Source: Cyclobacterium xiamenense
GTDB lineage: Bacteria > Bacteroidota > Bacteroidia > Cytophagales > Cyclobacteriaceae
Length of the DNA stretch: 64,000 bases
Direction of reading: 5' to 3'
NCBI RefSeq assembly: GCF_009467825.1
Contig: NZ_WIOK01000007.1
Location: forward strand, 80,563-144,562
Position 1 is the first letter of the stretch, and each line of letters starts with the position of its first letter. The notes under the pieces were generated by a model. The model ran no database searches. It was given only the letters and a program-made list of their open reading frames with translations, and was not told where the DNA came from. Made by a program: the position numbers and the translations under genes. Below, in pieces: positions 14,280-23,575 of the stretch.

Positions 14280-15839
14280 ATGACGCAGACATTTTACAGA
14301 TTATTTATTCCCAAGGAGGCCAATCTTAAAGACGAAGTACTCTCCGGCCTCACCGTGGCCCTGGCCCTGGTGCCTGAAGCGGTCGCATTTTCTCTGATCG
14401 CGGGTGTGAGCCCGTTGGTAGGCCTGTACACGGCATTTATCATTGGGTTGATTACCTCCATTATCGGGGGTAGGCCTGGAATGATTTCCGGAGCCACCGG
14501 AGCCATTGCGGTCGTTGTAGTAGCACTGGTGTTGCGGCATGGGGTGGAATACTTATTTGCTGCGGTGGTCTTAATGGGCCTTATTCAGATTTTGGTGGGC
14601 GTATTGAAGCTGGGAAAGTTGATTCGATTGGTACCCCATCCGGTGATGTTTGGTTTTGTGAACGGGCTGGCCATCGTTATTGCTATGTCGCAGTTGGCTC
14701 AGTTTAAGGTTGTCGGCGCATCCGGAGCCTTGGAATGGATGACCGGGACATCCCTGTACCTGATGTTTGGGCTGGTGTTGGTGACGATGGCCATTATCAA
14801 ATTTCTACCCAAGCTGACCCGCGCGGTCCCCTCGGCACTTGCAGCCATTTTGGTGGTAAGCCTGGTGGTGATTTTTGGCGGTCTGGATACCCGGACCGTT
14901 GGTGACATGGCTTCCATTAGCGGGGGCTTACCGGAATTTCACCTTCCCCTGGTACCGGTGAACTGGGAGACGCTGATGATTATTTTGCCGTATTCGGCCA
15001 TCATGGCAGGTGTGGGCTTGATCGAAAGCCTGCTAACTCTAACGCTGATAGACGAAATCACCGAAAGCCGGGGACAGGGAAACAAAGAGTGCGTGGCCCA
15101 GGGAATTGCCAATGTGACCACGGGATTTTTTGGGGGAATGGGTGGCTGTGCCATGATTGGTCAGTCACTGATTAATGTAAATGCAGGCGGAAGAAACCGG
15201 ATATCGGGCATCGTAGCGGCGGTCGGACTCCTGGTATTCATCTTGTTTTTATCTACCTATATAGAAATGGTGCCCATGGCAGCATTGGTCGGACTGATGT
15301 TCATGGTGGCCATCGGTACGTTTGAGTGGGCCTCGCTTCGGGTCTTCCGAAAAGTTCCCAAATCGGATGTGCTGGTGATGGTATTGGTCACGCTGGTAAC
15401 CGTGCTGCTACACAATTTGGCCCTGGCCGTGCTGATTGGAGTGGTGATTGCTGCTTTGGTATTTGCCTGGGAAAACTCCAAAATGATTCGCGCCCGAAAA
15501 TCCCTGGACGAAAACGGCGTAAAGCATTACGAGATATATGGTCCCTTGTTTTTTGCTTCTGCCATGACCTTTGGGCAAAAATTTGATCCCATGGGGGATC
15601 CGGATGAGATTGTCATCGATTTTAAGGAAAGCCGTATTGTGGATCATTCCGGCATAGACGCCATTCACAAGGTGACGGAGCGCTACGAGAAGTTTGGCAA
15701 AACCGTGTACATCCGTCACTTAAGCAACAGCAGCCGTGTACTTCTGAACAAAGCGGAGAAAATAATCAACGTAAACTATACGGAAGACGATCCGAGTTTT
15801 AAAATCATACTCGAACAGGAAGCGGCATCATCCAAGTAA
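14280..15839 (+). CDS. SulP family inorganic anion transporter with STAS domain
   Basis: 519 residues. Residues about 15-390 hold 10-14 membrane segments of the SLC26/SulP fold: the N-terminal GLTVALALVPEAVAFSLIAG signature, GRPGMISGATGAIAVVV, then GVGLIESLLTL and FGGMGGCAMIGQSLIN. Residues about 400-515 are a cytosolic STAS domain (VIDFKESRIVDHSGIDAIHK). The protein moves sulfate, bicarbonate or related anions across the inner membrane. It has its own promoter box and terminator, so it is likely monocistronic. A cysH gene elsewhere in the window makes sulfate possible, but bicarbonate is equally plausible for this subtype. Confidence 0.9.
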   Translation: MTQTFYRLFIPKEANLKDEVLSGLTVALALVPEAVAFSLIAGVSPLVGLYTAFIIGLITSIIGGRPGMISGATGAIAVVVVALVLRHGVEYLFAAVVLMGLIQILVGVLKLGKLIRLVPHPVMFGFVNGLAIVIAMSQLAQFKVVGASGALEWMTGTSLYLMFGLVLVTMAIIKFLPKLTRAVPSALAAILVVSLVVIFGGLDTRTVGDMASISGGLPEFHLPLVPVNWETLMIILPYSAIMAGVGLIESLLTLTLIDEITESRGQGNKECVAQGIANVTTGFFGGMGGCAMIGQSLINVNAGGRNRISGIVAAVGLLVFILFLSTYIEMVPMAALVGLMFMVAIGTFEWASLRVFRKVPKSDVLVMVLVTLVTVLLHNLALAVLIGVVIAALVFAWENSKMIRARKSLDENGVKHYEIYGPLFFASAMTFGQKFDPMGDPDEIVIDFKESRIVDHSGIDAIHKVTERYEKFGKTVYIRHLSNSSRVLLNKAEKIINVNYTEDDPSFKIILEQEAASSK

Positions 15840-15962
15840 GGCAGCGCCATGGTTTCAGGGCCCCTGGAAACGAATCCGGCGGTGCCCGGAAATCTTTTTT
15901 TTCCTGACTTCCGCTTGGAGACCGGCTTTTTCGGTAACAAAGACAGCAACAAAGACCTTGGG

Positions 15963-15993
15963 CCTCATTCGAATTGTTCGAATGGGGTTTTTT
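15963..15993 (+). terminator. Rho-independent terminator of sulP
   Basis: Eleven-base arms CCTCATTCGAA and TTCGAATGGGG (one G-T wobble) around TTG, followed by T6. The intron-like element begins about 12 bases after it. Confidence 0.85.
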
Positions 15994-16004
15994 GTTTGCC
16001 CTGC

Positions 16005-16699
16005 ATGCGAACTTATCCGTCAGCTTGAAAGAAAGCTGCGCGGCCTAACCAGAGGGAAGGCAATACGAAGCCAAATGCGTAGCTGGTAACGGAAGGGTGT
16101 GAAGGAAGGCTTAGTAATATCGTGAACGTAATGAGAGTGAACCGATTATGGCGGACAGTCGGGGTAAGGTTGCAAAAAGTGCCGAAGCCCGTAATCCGAA
16201 AAGGTCTGGATGTTAGAACGGATGGGTTAGGGCACAGGAAAGTTTGCTTAACGGGGGAAGCCCATATCTTTGTCCGGATTTGAAAAGAGAATGGAGGACT
16301 AAACAGTAACAAGTCGAGAGGAAAGGAAACTGTCAAGAGGGTATAGGTGGCAAATGAGTCCGTAGTAGTGATACATCTCGTGCCAATGAAACCTTAGCAA
16401 TAAGCGGGAGAAAACAAGTGAGACCCTGGACAGCTTGGCGCAAGAACAGATTCTGGGACACCGTGCATCCAAAAGATGTATTTCTGTGGCAAGGGTCGAA
16501 GTTAAACCAAACCTGGAGAACTTAGTTTCACGGGGAGTAAACCTTACGAATTTGGAGAAAGTAATAACCAACACATTGCATCAATACTACACGTTTGTAT
16601 TGGGTAAGAATTAGTAGTAGCCGTGAACGAAGCCCGTACGCACAGTTCTGTGAGAGGGATGAAGATTGAAATGTATTTTCTATCTTCACCCTACTCGAT
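16005..16699 (+). ncRNA. ORF-less, apparently degenerate group II intron
   Basis: About 695 nt with intron landmarks and no long open frame. The 5' end reads ATGCGAACTTATCC, close to the GUGYG consensus but with A in place of the first G. Domain I-like segments follow (GCTTGAAAGAAAGC stem, GGTAACGGAAGGGTGTGAAG, CGTGAACGTAATGAGAG). Near the end a domain V-like stretch starts with the AGC triad (AGCCGTG, about 16619) and ends CGCACAGTTCT. It is followed by GTGAGAGGG and a domain VI hairpin (AGGGATGAAGAT with ATCTTCACCCT) and the typical 3' end CTACTCGAT. Domain IV is short and no reverse transcriptase is present. A C-A mismatch and a shortened apex in domain V, plus the altered first base, suggest it no longer splices. 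Confidence 0.8.
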
Positions 16700-17132
16700 T
16701 GCAGATGGATTTTGTTTGAGTACGTTGGTTTTTTCTTCAATTATTCCGTTTCGATAGCGAGGCGTCAATCTACGGAAATCGTTCTTTTCGGTCAAAACGG
16801 CACCGACAGCAAGCTGGACCACATGCCCGCCCACTTCAAAGCCTACCAGGTAGACAGCGAATGGCAGGAGTTTCGTGAGTAGCGGGGCGCCCTGAAGAAA
16901 CGGTATATGGGGTAGGAAATACGTGCAGATGCTTTACTATCCGGTGAATACATTTGTAAGTACGATGCGATTTTTTCTATTTGTAGGAAGGTTTGTTTCA
17001 GAAGAGCGCATAAGATGGCGTCATAGTATAGCAAGCCCGGGTGCACCAAGAGAAGTTACAGAAAAAAATATTTTGATGATGGTACGCGAGATTGTTTCTG
17101 AGTGGATGGTTATACATATCCGTAGACAAAAC
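16700..17132. other. Intergenic region with a possible coding remnant
   Basis: From about 16752 a plus-strand frame without a start reads like protein: STEIVLFGQNGTDSK, then LDHMPAHFKAYQVDSEW, up to a TAG near 16880. Its composition is GC-richer than the surroundings. I cannot name the family. It may be the tail of a gene broken when the intron or a neighbouring element arrived. Confidence 0.35.
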
Positions 17133-17717
17133 ATGATCGCGATGGGGCGAACGTTAGTTTTATTTTTGCTTCCGATTATTAGCCTGGCGGCACAGACAGA
17201 ATACGAGTACCAGTATGAAGACTTGTACCTTCCCAGGGATGCCAGCGGAAACATTGTGTACAACGACGCGGTGACGGTACCGGGTGTATCCGGAGACGAG
17301 ATTTTTACCAAAGCCAGGCGTTGGTTTCACGATAATTTTAAATTTTTTAGGGGAAGGATTCAATATGAAGATCCGGAATCCGGAGTTATCCGAGGTGGCG
17401 GTATAATATTGGTTCGAAATAGGTTTTTGTGGTATGTATTCGAAACACCGGTCTTGTTTTCTTTGAAGATTAAAACAAAAGACGAACAATTCCAATACTT
17501 TATTTCTGATTTGGTAATCGTTCACGCCGACCCTCGTCTTATGGACCAACCTATTGAATTAGCTTTTAGTCAAGGCAACCTGTACAAAAGGAATGGAAAG
17601 CCAAGAAAGCGCCTACTCTATTTTTACTGGATGTTCGACGAAATGATCGTTGGACTTGAACAAAGAATCAGATCTGAATTACTTCCTCCTCCGTCAGGTC
17701 TTGGGGAAGATTGGTAA
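17133..17717 (+). CDS. DUF4468-type exported protein
   Basis: 194 residues when started at 17133, where a signal peptide begins (LVLFLLPIISLAAQ, cleaved about residue 22). A longer frame reaches back to 16923 but would put 70 unlikely residues before the signal. The mature part has the DUF4468 pattern: a GDEIFTKARRWFHDNF helix, an IQYEDPESGVIRGGG strand pair, then SLKIKTKDEQFQYFISDLVI. Members have a TBP-like fold and are common in Bacteroidota envelopes; their role is unknown. No partner gene is adjacent. Confidence 0.65.
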   Translation: MIAMGRTLVLFLLPIISLAAQTEYEYQYEDLYLPRDASGNIVYNDAVTVPGVSGDEIFTKARRWFHDNFKFFRGRIQYEDPESGVIRGGGIILVRNRFLWYVFETPVLFSLKIKTKDEQFQYFISDLVIVHADPRLMDQPIELAFSQGNLYKRNGKPRKRLLYFYWMFDEMIVGLEQRIRSELLPPPSGLGEDW

Positions 17718-18046
17718 TGAGACAACAGGTTAAAGAGTCGGCAAGAGTTCGGCGAGCAGCGTTGTAGGGGCGGTATTGAACTTGAAAGTTCGATTTATTC
17801 TTGTGTTTTTTATCGGTTCAGCCGCATTGGATCTGTTACATTTGATTGGACAGCCATCTAAGCCCCGTTCACTTGGAGCCCATTAAGAAGAGGAAAATCC
17901 TCCGATTAAGTCTTTAAACTAATGGTAATTTAGAACCATACGTGTGGGAAAACCTCTGGAGAAATTGGGCGAATGCTTGATATTCCGATATTCCTTCTGG
18001 TATGGTGCGTGGCTAGAGTAGGGAACATTCAGCTACCGGGGAGGTA
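17718..18046. other. Intergenic region, nothing recognised
   Basis: A possible 36-codon hydrophobic mini-frame near 17780-17886 starts with TTG and is not convincing. No RNA gene or hairpin terminator was seen. Confidence 0.35.
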
Positions 18047-18174
18047 AGTTTTGTCGGAAATGGAAAAGCGGCTATGACCCTGAGTAGTAAGAAATCGTCC
18101 AATTAAAGAGATCGTTGAAAGCGACTGAAAAAGATCGTAGTATCCTAAAAAAGGCCGTCGGCACCTTCTGTTAA
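18047..18174 (+). pseudogene. Remnant of an IS3-family OrfA transposase
   Basis: The frame from 18047 reads SFVGNGKAAMT, matching the mid part of IS3 OrfA (usually FxGNGKxxLTPEE). After loss of one base the next frame gives PE, two stop codons (TAG TAA), then EIVQLKRSLKATEKDRSILKKAVG up to 18174, split here as EIVQLKRSLK and ATEKDRSILKKAVG. This is the leucine-zipper and ERDILKKA end of OrfA. Two nonsense codons and a frameshift show it is dead. No OrfB sequence was recognised after it. Confidence 0.65.
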
Positions 18175-18571
18175 GCGACACTTTTTTACAAGGTATCATC
18201 ATGCGCCCATCCAATGTGCACGTCCAGCGGCAAGGAGTTTCATCGCTTTGCATCAACGGGTTGTATTTCCGGCTGACCAGCGAACACCTTAGGGAGTAGA
18301 GGCTTGCGTGTCCGATGTTTTAGAAACAGGAATAAGTGTCTGACATTTTGTTTACAAAAAAAACGCACGAAATGTATCGGATATTATTTGTTAGATTATT
18401 TATTTTGTATTTTATCCAGGGATAGTTTAGTCAGGTTTATACCGGTTAGTTCCTAACGCTTTCTGACAAGATAAATGCGTTGAGGGCGTTACGTATGTAT
18501 TCCATTGGATAACACTATGAGGAAAACGGCTGAAAGTGGATTAACTATGTTTTAAATTTTTGTTTTTTTGT
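18175..18571. other. Intergenic region after the IS3 remnant
   Basis: Contains a short frame (about 18195-18299) with no recognised family, then AT-rich sequence that should hold the promoter of the TPR regulator gene. No perfect TAnnTTTG box was found. Confidence 0.35.
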
Positions 18572-20227
18572 ATGATGGTTCCTAGAGTTGTTCTATTCCA
18601 ATTGGTAGTATATATCATTATTTTCATGTCGAGTGCTGTGCTATCCTATGCGGTCGAGAAAAAGCCTGATTCGCATGGTTCGTTAATCGAGGAGCCTTAT
18701 TACGCATTGCTTGACTCTTCCCGCGCCTTTTTACACAAAGATTTAAGGAAATCACTTTATTTTGCCGATCAGGCAAGGGGCTATGCAGATTCGTTGGAAC
18801 AACCCGACTTATTTGTCAAATTGTTCAATCAGTATGGGAGAATTTATTTTAGAGGTGGATTGTCGGATATTTCTACGGAATATTATCTGAAAAGCTATGA
18901 AATAATACAATCTGCAGTAGATCTTCCGACATCCGATCGTTTGAGCACCCTTTTGGGTATGGGAATCAATTACCTTTTTCTAAGGAATTACGATAGAGCC
19001 GAAGATTATTTTCTTCAGATACAAGAGTTATTAGAAACCCTTCCCGAACCTGACTACAAGATTCTTTCAGCGGTTATCAATAACCTTGGCATTATCTACA
19101 GAGAAAGAAATGACTTGGTACAAGCCAATAATTGTCTGGACCAGGGAATAAAAAAAATCGCGAAATTCGACCCTGAAAATGAAAACCTTGGTAACCTATA
19201 CAATAATCTTGGTTTAGTCTTTGCCCAAATGAAGAATTATGAAGCTGCTCTGGAAACGTTTGCTTTTGGTGGAAAGGAGGCACTTCGGAAGGACAATATT
19301 CATGCATTAGCCACCAACTACAGCTTCATAGCAAAAACATACAGGGAAATGGGCGATGCAACCTTGGCGATCAGGTACGGAAGACGAGGCAACCAACTAG
19401 CAGCAAAGGGGGAAATATTGGTAGTACAGCATAACTGTAGTGAGTTATTGGCCGACCTGTATAAGGAAATGCTGATGCCCGATTCTGCCCTGTTTTTTTT
19501 TGAGGAGAAGGAGCGTTTGTTCAGGGAAATTGACCAAAGCAAGGCTGAACAGAACCTCCTCACCCAAAGCCTAAAGGAAATGCATGCGCTGGAAATGGAA
19601 AAGCTGGTGGCGGAATCAAAAAATAGTAATAGGAAGCTTTTTTCATTCTTACTGATTACCTTTCTGATTTTGGCAGTACTCATTTTACTTTATGTCACTA
19701 TCCGGAGAAGATACCATCGTGTACGTTTGGAAAGGAAGAAGTTACTGCTTGTTTTCCAGCAAAGAGAGCGCGAAAGAGAACTCTTGCAGGCAAAGATTCA
19801 AGAAAAAAGCAAACAGCTTACGACCAAAATGCTCTATGAAACCAAAAGGCAACGTATTATCAAAGATACGGTAGATAAACTGGTAGGTAATAGAAATGAA
19901 TTCTCAAAGCAAGGAAAGAAAATTGTCAGCAGCATCGTTGGCGAACTGAGTCAGTTTGATCAGGATAAAATTCTTTCAGAGTTTGAGGTTTCCTTTTTGG
20001 ACCTGCACACGGGTTTTTATAAAAACCTTTTGGATTCCTTTCCAAACCTTAGCCCTAACGAAAGGCGACTTTGTGCCTTTATCAGACTGAATCTAAACAG
20101 TAGTGAAATATCGGCACTTACCGGGCAGAGTAAAAGCACCCTCAATATGGCGAAAACCAGGCTGAGGAAGAAATTGGGTGTTACCCACAGCAATGTGGAT
20201 CTCTACGACTTTTTGTCCAGGTTTTGA
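18572..20227 (+). CDS. TPR-repeat membrane protein with C-terminal LuxR-like helix-turn-helix
   Basis: 551 residues. An N-terminal hydrophobic segment (signal or anchor) is followed by several tetratricopeptide repeats (about residues 60-330; for example AVINNLGIIYRERNDLVQA and LYNNLGLVFAQMKNYEAAL). A single membrane helix at about 350-375 (FLLITFLILAVLILLYVTI) is followed by a coiled coil and a C-terminal helix-turn-helix (LSPNERRLCAFIRLNLNSSE then ISALTGQSKSTLNMAKTRLR). This is a common Bacteroidota one-component sensor layout: periplasmic TPRs, cytosolic DNA-binding end. The targets are unknown. Start chosen at the ATG at 18572 rather than a TTG 12 bases earlier. Confidence 0.82.
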   Translation: MMVPRVVLFQLVVYIIIFMSSAVLSYAVEKKPDSHGSLIEEPYYALLDSSRAFLHKDLRKSLYFADQARGYADSLEQPDLFVKLFNQYGRIYFRGGLSDISTEYYLKSYEIIQSAVDLPTSDRLSTLLGMGINYLFLRNYDRAEDYFLQIQELLETLPEPDYKILSAVINNLGIIYRERNDLVQANNCLDQGIKKIAKFDPENENLGNLYNNLGLVFAQMKNYEAALETFAFGGKEALRKDNIHALATNYSFIAKTYREMGDATLAIRYGRRGNQLAAKGEILVVQHNCSELLADLYKEMLMPDSALFFFEEKERLFREIDQSKAEQNLLTQSLKEMHALEMEKLVAESKNSNRKLFSFLLITFLILAVLILLYVTIRRRYHRVRLERKKLLLVFQQRERERELLQAKIQEKSKQLTTKMLYETKRQRIIKDTVDKLVGNRNEFSKQGKKIVSSIVGELSQFDQDKILSEFEVSFLDLHTGFYKNLLDSFPNLSPNERRLCAFIRLNLNSSEISALTGQSKSTLNMAKTRLRKKLGVTHSNVDLYDFLSRF

Positions 20228-21216
20228 TTTTTTAATGAGTGTATTAGTTTTTTGACAAATAAACTTTTTGTGCGTACAAGATGGCATTGCCAACACCCTA
20301 TATGTAGAAGTATCGGATAGCTCCTGGCTTATTTTGGGTCGGTTGAATCTGTCGACGTATTCGTTGATGTAAGGTCATTACGGAATGGTAGGCTCCACTT
20401 GGCCGGGCTTTGAACACCATTATTGTAGTACACGATGGATTTTGACAAAGTTTTCACACTTCTCGCCTTCGTTTTCATGGGTCTTGTTGGGAAAATGGGT
20501 TTCTATCCCCTTACAACCACTCCGGTAATCGAGTTTATTTACTTGTCTCATTTTCAATAAAGCTTTCGTTTGAAGCATATTTGGGAGTATTTATTTGACC
20601 TACGCTAGCTCAGATTATTTAATCTAACTCATTAATAATTAGTCAGTAATGAATTTTTGTTACGAAAATGTTATCGCATTTTTTTACTATGTAATGCACT
20701 TGTATCTACCCCTTTTTGTTTTTTTTGCGCTGAACGCTTTTTATTTGTGACTTAAATAAACAGTCAGGCGGTGCCGAGGTAGCTGGCCAATCCCGATGGA
20801 TTTTCGTTTTCGGTAGATTCTCAGCGACTTCTGAGTAATAGGTGCATGAAAAGTTAGCTGGATTGGATGCAGATATTGGTAGATCAGTGGATATATTGAA
20901 GCAGGTTTCTGTCACCGAATATGAATGGATTTGCCTAACCAAATTTCAAATGAAATAGCGTATGTTTGGCTACCCTCAGTGAGTTGACTAGTAAGCCATG
21001 CGGGACTTTGAGGGACCGGCGAATAAATTAATTGCGAAAACATAGAGATATAAACTATATTGTTAAAATATTTTCATCACCACAGGTGATATAGAGCCTT
21101 TCGGTCATTTTAGCTGGTTTAAGGAGAACTTGAGGTGTTGAGATTGAATTCTGTTTGGATCGGAGAGTAGAGACTGATTTATTCGTTAAAAATTTAAATT
21201 ACTGCGTAAATAAGAT
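20228..21216. other. Long AT-rich intergenic region, nothing firmly recognised
   Basis: Nearly 1 kb without a supported gene. A plus-strand frame around 20745-20960, broken by two adjacent stops, has short coding-like stretches (LDADIGRSVDILKQVSV) but no family I can name. Together with IS remnants on both sides this looks like decayed sequence. Confidence 0.4.
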
Positions 21217-21708
21217 ATGAGAAAAGTGAAATTCTGCCGGGATCGCTTCGAAGAAAGTCGCTACAAAGAGCTTCTCTCACAGATCTACAGTGCAAATGAC
21301 CCACAAAAAATATCGGTAAATCTGCATCCTGAACAGCTAATGCTGGTATCAGGGGTACGCTGTGCGTTGGAGGCGCTGGAAAATAGGGAAGATCATCTGA
21401 CAAATGAATTGCTAAATCGGGATACTATCGAGGATTGTTGCGGGGCATGGGCGGTACTGAAAAAATTGCAATTGTTCGTTAACGATATGGTGCAGTATGC
21501 GAACCAGTTTACAAGACAAGGTATGGGAAATTACATCAAATTTTTACCAGAGCAAGGCCGCCAGGTCATCAACGAGCCATTTGGTAGTGATTTGGTCTGT
21601 ATGGATGCCCGGAACTACCGGGCGGCGCGGGCGATCTGGAATTTATCGAAAAATGGGCTGGGTCACGCTAAAGAGTCAGTAAAAGGGCAGGGGGTGTCTC
21701 ATGGATAA
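21217..21708 (+). CDS. Unrecognised protein, first gene of a two-gene unit
   Basis: 163 residues, soluble, with no signal peptide or membrane helix. It looks mostly helical, with Leu/Glu-rich stretches (SGVRCALEALENREDHLTNE, then NDMVQYANQF). I do not recognise the family. The start ATG at 21217 is preceded by AT-rich sequence. Its last codons overlap the next gene within ATGGATAA, so the two are translationally coupled. The unit sits between IS remnants and could be of phage or conjugative-element origin. No function is proposed. Confidence 0.6.
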   Translation: MRKVKFCRDRFEESRYKELLSQIYSANDPQKISVNLHPEQLMLVSGVRCALEALENREDHLTNELLNRDTIEDCCGAWAVLKKLQLFVNDMVQYANQFTRQGMGNYIKFLPEQGRQVINEPFGSDLVCMDARNYRAARAIWNLSKNGLGHAKESVKGQGVSHG

Positions 21709-21919
21709 TCGTGTGCAGGTACGGATCTCAGGTAAAAACCCGGAAGGACAGAAACGGATATTTGAGATCATCAGGGAAGCCCTTGAATCGAATGGGTACC
21801 GTACGATAAACGTGAATGCATCGTCTTGGGCAACCGACCGCCTAATGGCTTATAATGAAGCACATGATGTAGATTTGGAGTCGGTATATGAAAAAGCTAC
21901 GATGACATCTAATAGTTAG
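21701..21919 (+). CDS. Unrecognised small protein, second gene of a two-gene unit
   Basis: 72 residues. The sequence suggests a small alpha/beta fold: a VQVRISGKN strand, a long amphipathic helix IFEIIREALESNGYR, a TINVNAS strand and an acidic C-terminal helix. I do not recognise it. It starts inside the stop region of the preceding gene (8-base overlap), which supports a real operon. Its stop is followed directly by an imperfect inverted repeat and an IS481-type transposase remnant. Confidence 0.55.
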   Translation: MDNRVQVRISGKNPEGQKRIFEIIREALESNGYRTINVNASSWATDRLMAYNEAHDVDLESVYEKATMTSNS

Positions 21920-21960
21920 GGATTAAATTTAGGTGTTGAATCTAATCATTAACCCCTAAA
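21917..21960. repeat. Imperfect inverted repeat after the two-gene unit
   Basis: TTAGGGATTAAAT and ATTAACCCCTAA can pair over about 12 bases around a 20-base loop. It directly precedes the IS481-type remnant, so it may contain part of that element's left end or act as a weak terminator. Confidence 0.35.
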
Positions 21961-21969
21961 AACTGTCAG

Positions 21970-22206
21970 ATGAATACAGAGACGGAAGTAATAAAAAACA
22001 AGGTAGGTTTGTTACAATTAGCAGCATAAGTAGGAGATGTTCCCGAGGCTTGCAAACTTTTCGGTTACAGCAGAGATAGCTTTTACTGGTTCAATGAGCG
22101 CTACGAGCAGGGAGGAGAGCTGGCGCTGAGGGAACTTAGCAAAGGGACACCAAATCTCAAGAACCGCATCGAGGCAGAAATAGAGGTTGCAGTGATAAAG
22201 TGTAAA
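21970..22206 (+). pseudogene. Remnant of an IS481-family transposase (N-terminal part)
   Basis: From the ATG at 21970 the frame reads MNTETEVIKNKVGLLQLAA, then a TAA stop (22027-22029), then continues in the same frame with VGDVPEACKLFGYSRDSFYW, FNERYEQGGELALRELS and NLKNRIEAEIEVAVI. This is the N-terminal helix-turn-helix of IS481-type transposases (usually GNVSxACRxMGYSRDSFYRF). Similarity ends near 22206 and the DDE catalytic domain is absent. The stop plus truncation make it a dead fragment. Confidence 0.8.
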
Positions 22207-22501
22207 GTTTTTAATTCATCCTACGCGATTCGTACATCCCCTTCCGGTTTCTGTCCCGGTTGCCAGGGCCGGCGAGAACCTATGCTGCCAGCTGGAGTAG
22301 GCCCGCGCTGGCGTTCCTCCGACGTTTGAAAACAACTGCAGGGAGCTGACGAGCGGATCGAGTTTGTAGAAAGCGATGTTCGCCGCGCGGAAATAATACC
22401 GATTTTTTTTGAAGAAAATTTGGAGATAATTTAATTTTTTAGTTATTTAATCACTTCTTGTACCAACCATTGCTAACCAACCCTTTGCATACCTGTATAC
22501 T
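22207..22501. other. Intergenic region with a GC-rich insert of unknown origin
   Basis: Bases about 22225-22400 are much GC-richer than the AT-rich flanks and read as protein-like in more than one frame (plus: SPSGFCPGCQGRREPMLPAG; later ADERIEFVESDVRRAEIIP). I cannot assign it. It directly follows the IS481 remnant. The promoter of the efflux operon should lie at about 22430-22495. Confidence 0.35.
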
Positions 22502-23575
22502 ATGGCTTCCTACTCATCGATTTATTGCGGCGTTTTGTTTTTTTTCATTTTCCTAAGTTGCCAATCCCCCGAGGAAAAAAGCGAGGAAATACCCATGGAA
22601 ACCTTCCGGGACGAGGTGCAGGCGACCACGGTTCGGGTGGGGCAATCGGAGACCAAATCCTTCGACTACCTGATCAACGCCACCGGAAAAATCGAAGCGG
22701 CAAACGAAGTCATGGTGATTGTCGAGCGGCCGGGATACCTGCTGGAGGTTTTGGTCGAGGAGGGGCAGCCGGTGCAGGCGGGTCAGACCATCGCCCGGCT
22801 GGACAAAACCGACAGCCAAATGGAATGGGAGCGGGCACAGGTGGAGTTGCGCTCGACCACGGCCGAGTACCAAAGCCGCCGAATTGCTGCCGATGTGGAA
22901 ACCACGCTGTTGGATTCCCTGGGAAATGCAGAACGGGACGAGTTTTGGAAAGCCTCCAGTGGACTTCTGAGTGCGCAGATCGCCGTAAGGGAGGCGGAAA
23001 GGAACCTGGAGAAAACCGAAATCAAAGCCCCGATTGCCGGGGCGGTTGCGGACTTGCAGGTCAGAAAAGGTAGTTTGGTCAATACCGGCGATGAGGTTTG
23101 CCTGGTGCTCAGCACGAATCTGCTGGAGATGAAAGTGAAAATCCTGGAATCGGATATTGTTTTTGTAGGGAAGGGGCAGAAGGCGGAAGTGTATCCGGTT
23201 TCTGGTTCCGGCGATGGGATTTCCGGCACGGTAAGCAGCATCAATCCCAAGGTGGATGAAAACGGATTGGTACAGGTAACGCTTAGCCTGCAACAGGGAG
23301 GCAGGCTGCTTCCGGGGATGAATGCCCGGGCGGTGATTCGCGCGCCGCAAAACAATAGCCTGGTCGTTCCCAAAGAAGCCGTGGTATACCGATCCGGCAG
23401 GCCGGTGGTTTTCACGATTGAAAACGACGAGGCCATTTGGAACTACGTGGAGGTGGGTAAGGACAACGGCCGGGAGATGGAAATCCTCGATGGCCTGATG
23501 GCCAGTCAGCAAGTAATTATCAGCAATAATGTTCAATTGGCGCATCAGGCTCCGGTACAGGTGATAACAGACTAA
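22502..23575 (+). CDS. RND efflux periplasmic adaptor (membrane fusion) lipoprotein
   Basis: 357 residues. The lipobox is FIFLSCQ. Residues about 60-100 form the first biotinyl-lipoyl half (VERPGYLLEVLVEEGQPVQAG), followed by a helical hairpin (about 105-175) and the second lipoyl half (IKAPIAGAVADLQVRKGSLV). Then come beta-barrel and membrane-proximal domains with SINPKVDENGLVQVTLSL. It bridges the inner-membrane pump to an outer-membrane channel. The pump gene starts 3 bases after its stop, so they are one operon. No TolC-type gene is present. Confidence 0.9.
   Translation: MASYSSIYCGVLFFFIFLSCQSPEEKSEEIPMETFRDEVQATTVRVGQSETKSFDYLINATGKIEAANEVMVIVERPGYLLEVLVEEGQPVQAGQTIARLDKTDSQMEWERAQVELRSTTAEYQSRRIAADVETTLLDSLGNAERDEFWKASSGLLSAQIAVREAERNLEKTEIKAPIAGAVADLQVRKGSLVNTGDEVCLVLSTNLLEMKVKILESDIVFVGKGQKAEVYPVSGSGDGISGTVSSINPKVDENGLVQVTLSLQQGGRLLPGMNARAVIRAPQNNSLVVPKEAVVYRSGRPVVFTIENDEAIWNYVEVGKDNGREMEILDGLMASQQVIISNNVQLAHQAPVQVITD

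Follow-up and report, generated by a model that had tools for sequence, protein, structure and literature searches.

A probably decayed group II intron behind sulP

The stretch of Cyclobacterium xiamenense DNA analysed here (64,000 nt of contig NZ_WIOK01000007.1, positions 80,563 to 144,562, forward strand; referred to below as the window) contains, between sulP and a DUF4468 gene, a group II intron without an open reading frame (ORF). Very probably, it is a dead or dying intron of IIC type, from a sub-lineage with an AGC triad that sits behind terminators, made ORF-less by internal deletion. A decayed ORF-less group II intron had been proposed here in an initial annotation, and this is supported by a match to the Rfam model RF02001, the broken pairs in domain V, near-complete deletion of the reverse transcriptase (RT) and the failure to find an intact cognate maturase in the draft genome. 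Between the two options left by that annotation, a relic or a very unusual non-autonomous intron, the relic is favoured. It is an ordinary relic with clear ancestry. Its features, all on the + strand, are listed below; G487 denotes a genome of the same order carrying a related intron.

15963..15993: terminator-like hairpin and T-run, the 5' exon and insertion site (11 of 11 pairs)
15994..16699: ORF-less group II intron (IIC-type relic), 706 nt, GUUUG...CUACUCGAU, placed by RF02001, the G487 match and the ends of relatives
16080..16244: domain I region, RF02001 (group-II-D1D4-3), 46.1 bits against a gathering threshold of 32
16174..16178: AAAAA loop, possible exon-binding site 1, which judging from sequence only could pair with the T-run at 15988-15993
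16346..16389: stretch preceding the deleted RT, assigned by position to domain III or the start of domain IV, 75% identical to G487 over 44 nt
16543..16602: RT C-terminal remnant (LTNLEKVITNTLHQYYTFVL), 12 of 20 residues shared with the end of the G487 RT, 25.8 bits
16618..16648: domain V with its AGC triad; of 12 pairs, three are broken (U-C, C-A and A-A)
16656..16699: domain VI hairpin and 3' end, 10 of 10 pairs (16656-16666 with 16682-16691), one unpaired A on the 5' side

Ribozyme domains

RF02001 matched with an E value of 4e-6 when the whole window was compared with 4227 Rfam families, and it was the only family to reach gathering level in the 64 kb, confirming the domain I-type segments reported earlier. 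The window intron scores 46.1 bits, compared with 67.6 for G487, 50.9 for an RT-bearing copy from Pseudoalteromonas and 29.9 for a broken copy in G428. Non-standard pairs, counted by eye from the alignments, number 13 of 48 in the window, 8 in G487, 9 in Pseudoalteromonas and 3 in G190. Given the RF02001 scores of the window and the two relatives, damage outside domain V is mild.

Domain V is more clearly affected: none of its 12 pairs is broken in either of two G487 copies or in the Pseudoalteromonas copy. The AGC triad is present as annotated, together with a two-base bulge, CG. The C-A mismatch taken earlier as a sign of decay is real, and two further pairs are lost. The shortened apex, also taken as such a sign, has to be discarded, since four pairs and a 5-nt loop are likewise found in RT-bearing relatives and are normal for the lineage; the third sign, an A as first base, falls as well (see below). 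The domain V/VI model RF00029 was matched at 16616-16689 with 24.2 bits, below the gathering threshold of 40 (E 0.028), so that by Rfam alone the outcome named in the initial annotation as refuting it, a domain V without any covariance-model match, is neither established nor cleanly excluded. The domain VI hairpin is formed as claimed. No usable picture of the domains emerged when the whole intron was folded by minimum energy.

As the bases rest on one assembly, the domain V differences might come from errors of sequencing or assembly, with the intron otherwise sound apart from its deletion. This is hardly conceivable: four separate substitutions within 31 bases plus an RT deletion are difficult to obtain from assembly error, and repeat collapse is unlikely since the window copy differs widely from the other copies in the genome.

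Boundaries and insertion site

Behind the hairpin and its six T, the window intron reads GTTTGCCCTGCATGC from 15994. All 17 related 5' ends (15 in G487, loci L113 and L128-L141, and one each in G428 and G354) start GTTTGCCCTGCA right after a T-run, and the Pseudoalteromonas plasmid intron starts GTTTGCCC after the terminator of an HU gene and ends ACCCTACTCGAT. Thirteen 3' ends read ACCCTACTTGAT, followed by T in 11 cases and C in two. Three copies in G190, which belong to another branch, show a GTTTGCC start behind a T-run. Because the ends of relatives fix both boundaries, the intron is placed at 15994-16699. The 3' end given in the initial annotation, CTACTCGAT at 16699, is present, but the start proposed there, 16005, lies 11 nt too far in. 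The unusual first base A is a boundary error, as A16005 is ruled out by the 17 related 5' ends and the Pseudoalteromonas copy, and the first base is G15994. The termini are GUUUG...AU; of the consensus GUGYG...AY, the literal 5' part is absent, and GUUUG is also found in 15 of the 15 listed G487 ends and in the Pseudoalteromonas copy.

The insertion lies between sulP (14280-15839, Pfam Sulfate_transp) and the DUF4468 gene (16923-17717). Downstream of sulP, 15963-15973 pairs with 15977-15987, and the T6 run at 15988-15993 abuts the intron start. Insertion behind an intrinsic terminator, as in group IIC, is thus seen directly upstream of the window intron, and a hairpin with a run of 5-7 T precedes all 17 related 5' ends. 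Alone, this test is loose and not specific, a stem of at least 8 pairs being found at 36 of 90 other sites with five or more T in the 15 G487 loci.

Across 11 sulP loci of the genus (a twelfth genome, G195, gave a partial sulP match only and was left out), the intron start is present behind sulP at one. No clean empty site for the window intron was found behind sulP in this comparison, because the region has been rearranged: the marker of the next gene lies 354-613 nt downstream of sulP at seven of the 11 loci, whereas the gene itself begins at 22502 in the window, and the 154 nt preceding the intron could not be aligned with relatives. The approximately 6.6 kb between sulP and this next conserved gene, which is membrane-fusion-like, span 15840-22501 and hold the intron, the DUF4468 gene and a gene for a TPR protein.

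Loss of the reverse transcriptase

RT-bearing relatives give the size of what has been lost. Counted from the first ATG, the G487 RT has 429 residues, in an open frame of 434 codons, and the Pseudoalteromonas RT has 424. Domain V lies 272 nt from the conserved GGTGGC block in the window, versus 1708 nt in G487. A global alignment of domain IV was set aside because it scattered across the large gap. Where an autonomous retroelement carries an intact RT/maturase in domain IV, the window intron has only a 20-residue tail just upstream of domain V, matching the C-terminal end of the G487 RT; the longest + strand ORF lying wholly within the intron is 59 aa. The earlier statement that RT is absent thus holds for an RT ORF, but about 20 C-terminal codons remain. 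The score of this remnant was reached by none of 500 shuffles, and its differences from G487 at codon positions 1, 2 and 3 number 9, 6 and 14. As the best shuffle came near, at 24.6 bits, the call leans partly on position and codon pattern.

These features can be arranged into a sequence of events, of which the order and the route of the deletion are inferred. Retrotransposition would have placed an intron of IIC type behind the terminator of sulP; in the ancestor of this intron, domain IV carried an RT/maturase. A later internal deletion would have removed the RT except for its last ~20 codons, and the ribozyme would then have begun to lose pairs in domain V. The present intron would be immobile on its own and probably splices poorly or not at all. 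Because of its position, downstream of a terminator and not within either flanking gene, the host can do without its splicing, and therefore nothing stops its decay.

Search for a cognate maturase

Searches of the 97-contig draft genome with RVT_1, RF02001, RF00029 and the G487 RT gave no intact cognate maturase. Three other traces of RT occur in this genome. A class-C-like RT fragment with a stop, the remnant of another intron, lies on contig C57 (L003:1501-1722). A 681-aa RT ORF on contig C52 (L004:748-2793) is of another kind, unlike an intron maturase and perhaps, as a guess, a defence-type RT; with TIGR04416, whose cut-off is 300, a 95-residue piece of it reaches a score of 51. The third is a short piece within a second relic described below. 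A pattern search of the genome_contigs collection returned L011, which is the sister relic described below, and L012, judged by eye to be a chance match inside a coding region.

The maturase search bears on whether the intron is still functional, able to splice and open to mobilisation in trans by a related intron's maturase. In favour of such a non-autonomous intron are the intact termini, triad and domain VI, and a domain I score near that of an RT-bearing relative. It is nevertheless unlikely, given that no intact related RT was found in the genome, where only the C57 fragment, the C52 ORF of another kind and the piece in the second relic occur, that the ORF-less form is present as a single copy, and that three domain V pairs are broken. 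Distinctly improbable, too, is a stable ORF-less intron of IIC type with an AGC triad that still splices in the absence of a related maturase in its genome and despite a broken domain V, which would make it a second example of the kind of C.te.I1 from Clostridium tetani. According to the available text of PMC4424553, bacteria rarely have ORF-less introns, and these nearly always occur alongside related introns, with C.te.I1 as one exception.

Several observations weigh against the favoured reading. A good deal of the ribozyme is well kept: its domain I score, 46.1 bits, is close to that of the Pseudoalteromonas intron with its RT (50.9), every pair of domain VI is formed, and the triad and the two termini are preserved. 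The whole-intron fold is slightly better than shuffled sequence (z -1.46, with one of 20 shuffles at least as good), and the 25.8 bits of the RT tail exceed the best of the 500 shuffles by a small margin. A hidden cognate in the draft genome is possible as well, because multicopy introns break assemblies, as they do in G487.

Sister relics in the genus

A second relic of the same lineage, more decayed and retaining a different RT piece, lies on contig C19 of the same genome (L002:106-497). Orthologs of it occur in C. jeungdonense (L009/L011) and in genome G249 (L161, 505 nt), the latter with a GTTTG start and an RT piece in a broken frame; at four of five other loci compared (L162-L165), no match to a relic was obtained. 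Its identity to the C. jeungdonense ortholog is 91.0% (356/391), compared with 91.2% (104/114) for the adjoining spacers and 94.3% (848/899) for the next gene. Drift thus equals the spacer rate, and there is no sign of constraint on this relic. Within the same genus, intron copies are found at different stages of loss, which also speaks for decay of the window copy.

The drift of the sister relic also bears on whether the host has retained the intron segment in the role of some other structured RNA, such as a regulatory element or a small RNA. Large parts of it are still folded and it lies directly behind a terminator. Nevertheless, this explanation is highly improbable: an intron family is the sole gathering-level match in the window, the intron start is missing behind sulP at the other 10 of 11 loci, and the sister copy drifts at spacer rate, a measurement made on the second relic, as the window copy has no ortholog among the genomes compared.

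With the window segment taken as a decaying intron, the locus shows a mobile intron behind a terminator dying in place, through deletion of its RT and mismatches in domain V, with larger losses in sister copies of the genus. As a finding on the window alone, this is an ordinary one.

Relatives and distribution

The closest evidence of ancestry comes from G487, which matches intron positions 1-283 with 75% identity (blastn, E 1.8e-41). Its multicopy intron of the same lineage appears as 32 blastn pieces, many at contig ends (L113, L125, L127-L152), and, as its copies break contigs, was read as separate 5' parts (L113, L128-L141) and 3' parts (L125, L127, L142-L152, L153, L154). By blastn, intron matches were found in three of 196 family genomes and 13 of 390 order genomes, with the own genome counted and the two samples overlapping; the matches in the order include several short pieces. 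RF02001 itself is common, being found in 110 of 295 family genomes. RT-bearing members of the lineage occur in G487 and Pseudoalteromonas. None of the listed matches in other family or order genomes covers most of the window intron, which is a further sign of its decay. The copy in G428 is also broken, its RT having in-frame stops.

The Pseudoalteromonas copy (L013:969-3071) is carried on a plasmid (NZ_CP142031) in another phylum, where it lies behind an HU-gene terminator. Its presence there suggests that the AGC branch spread long ago or by horizontal transfer. For the whole intron, a plasmid or phage relative was rejected: in plasmids the match was confined to 47 nt of domain V, in two records of Pseudoalteromonas, and the phages searched gave none.

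Classification and comparison with known systems

The window intron would best be placed in an AGC-triad sub-lineage of IIC-type introns inserting behind terminators. Its affinity to class C is read from similarity rankings of the relatives' RTs. Among solved structures, these RTs are closest to 7uim_D (listed as group II intron reverse transcriptase/maturase) and 6ar1 (GsI-IIC RT), and they are also closest to the RTs of CGC-triad introns behind terminators (L052, L053 and L057). Among 18 distinct domain V segments, nine have CGC, four have AGC (the window, Pseudoalteromonas and two from G487) and five are ambiguous. The available text of PMC7923331 gives CGC as the triad of group IIC, and the text of PMC4424553 describes insertion behind terminators as a IIC habit. 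The label "IIC-type" is used here instead of plain IIC because the triad is AGC instead of CGC. The combination of an AGC triad with a terminator-inserting intron of IIC type was not reported in the partial texts searched, which is not proof of its absence. The AGC branch, known here from this order and from the Pseudoalteromonas plasmid, could serve for comparing AGC with CGC active sites in otherwise similar introns.

Compared with group IIC (bacterial class C) introns, the window intron shares the RF02001 match, insertion behind a terminator hairpin and, through its relatives, RT similarity, whereas it differs in its AGC triad, its 5' GUUUG instead of GUGYG and the deletion of its RT. With the multicopy intron of G487 and the intron of Pseudoalteromonas it has in common the termini, insertion setting, domain V layout and triad; unlike it, both encode RT and keep 12 of 12 domain V pairs. 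Finally, it resembles C.te.I1 of C. tetani and the bacterial ORF-less introns, as far as they are described in the available text of PMC4424553, in lacking RT and in that no intact related RT was found in its genome, but with its damaged domain V and the remnant of its RT, the window copy, unlike C.te.I1, reads as a relic.
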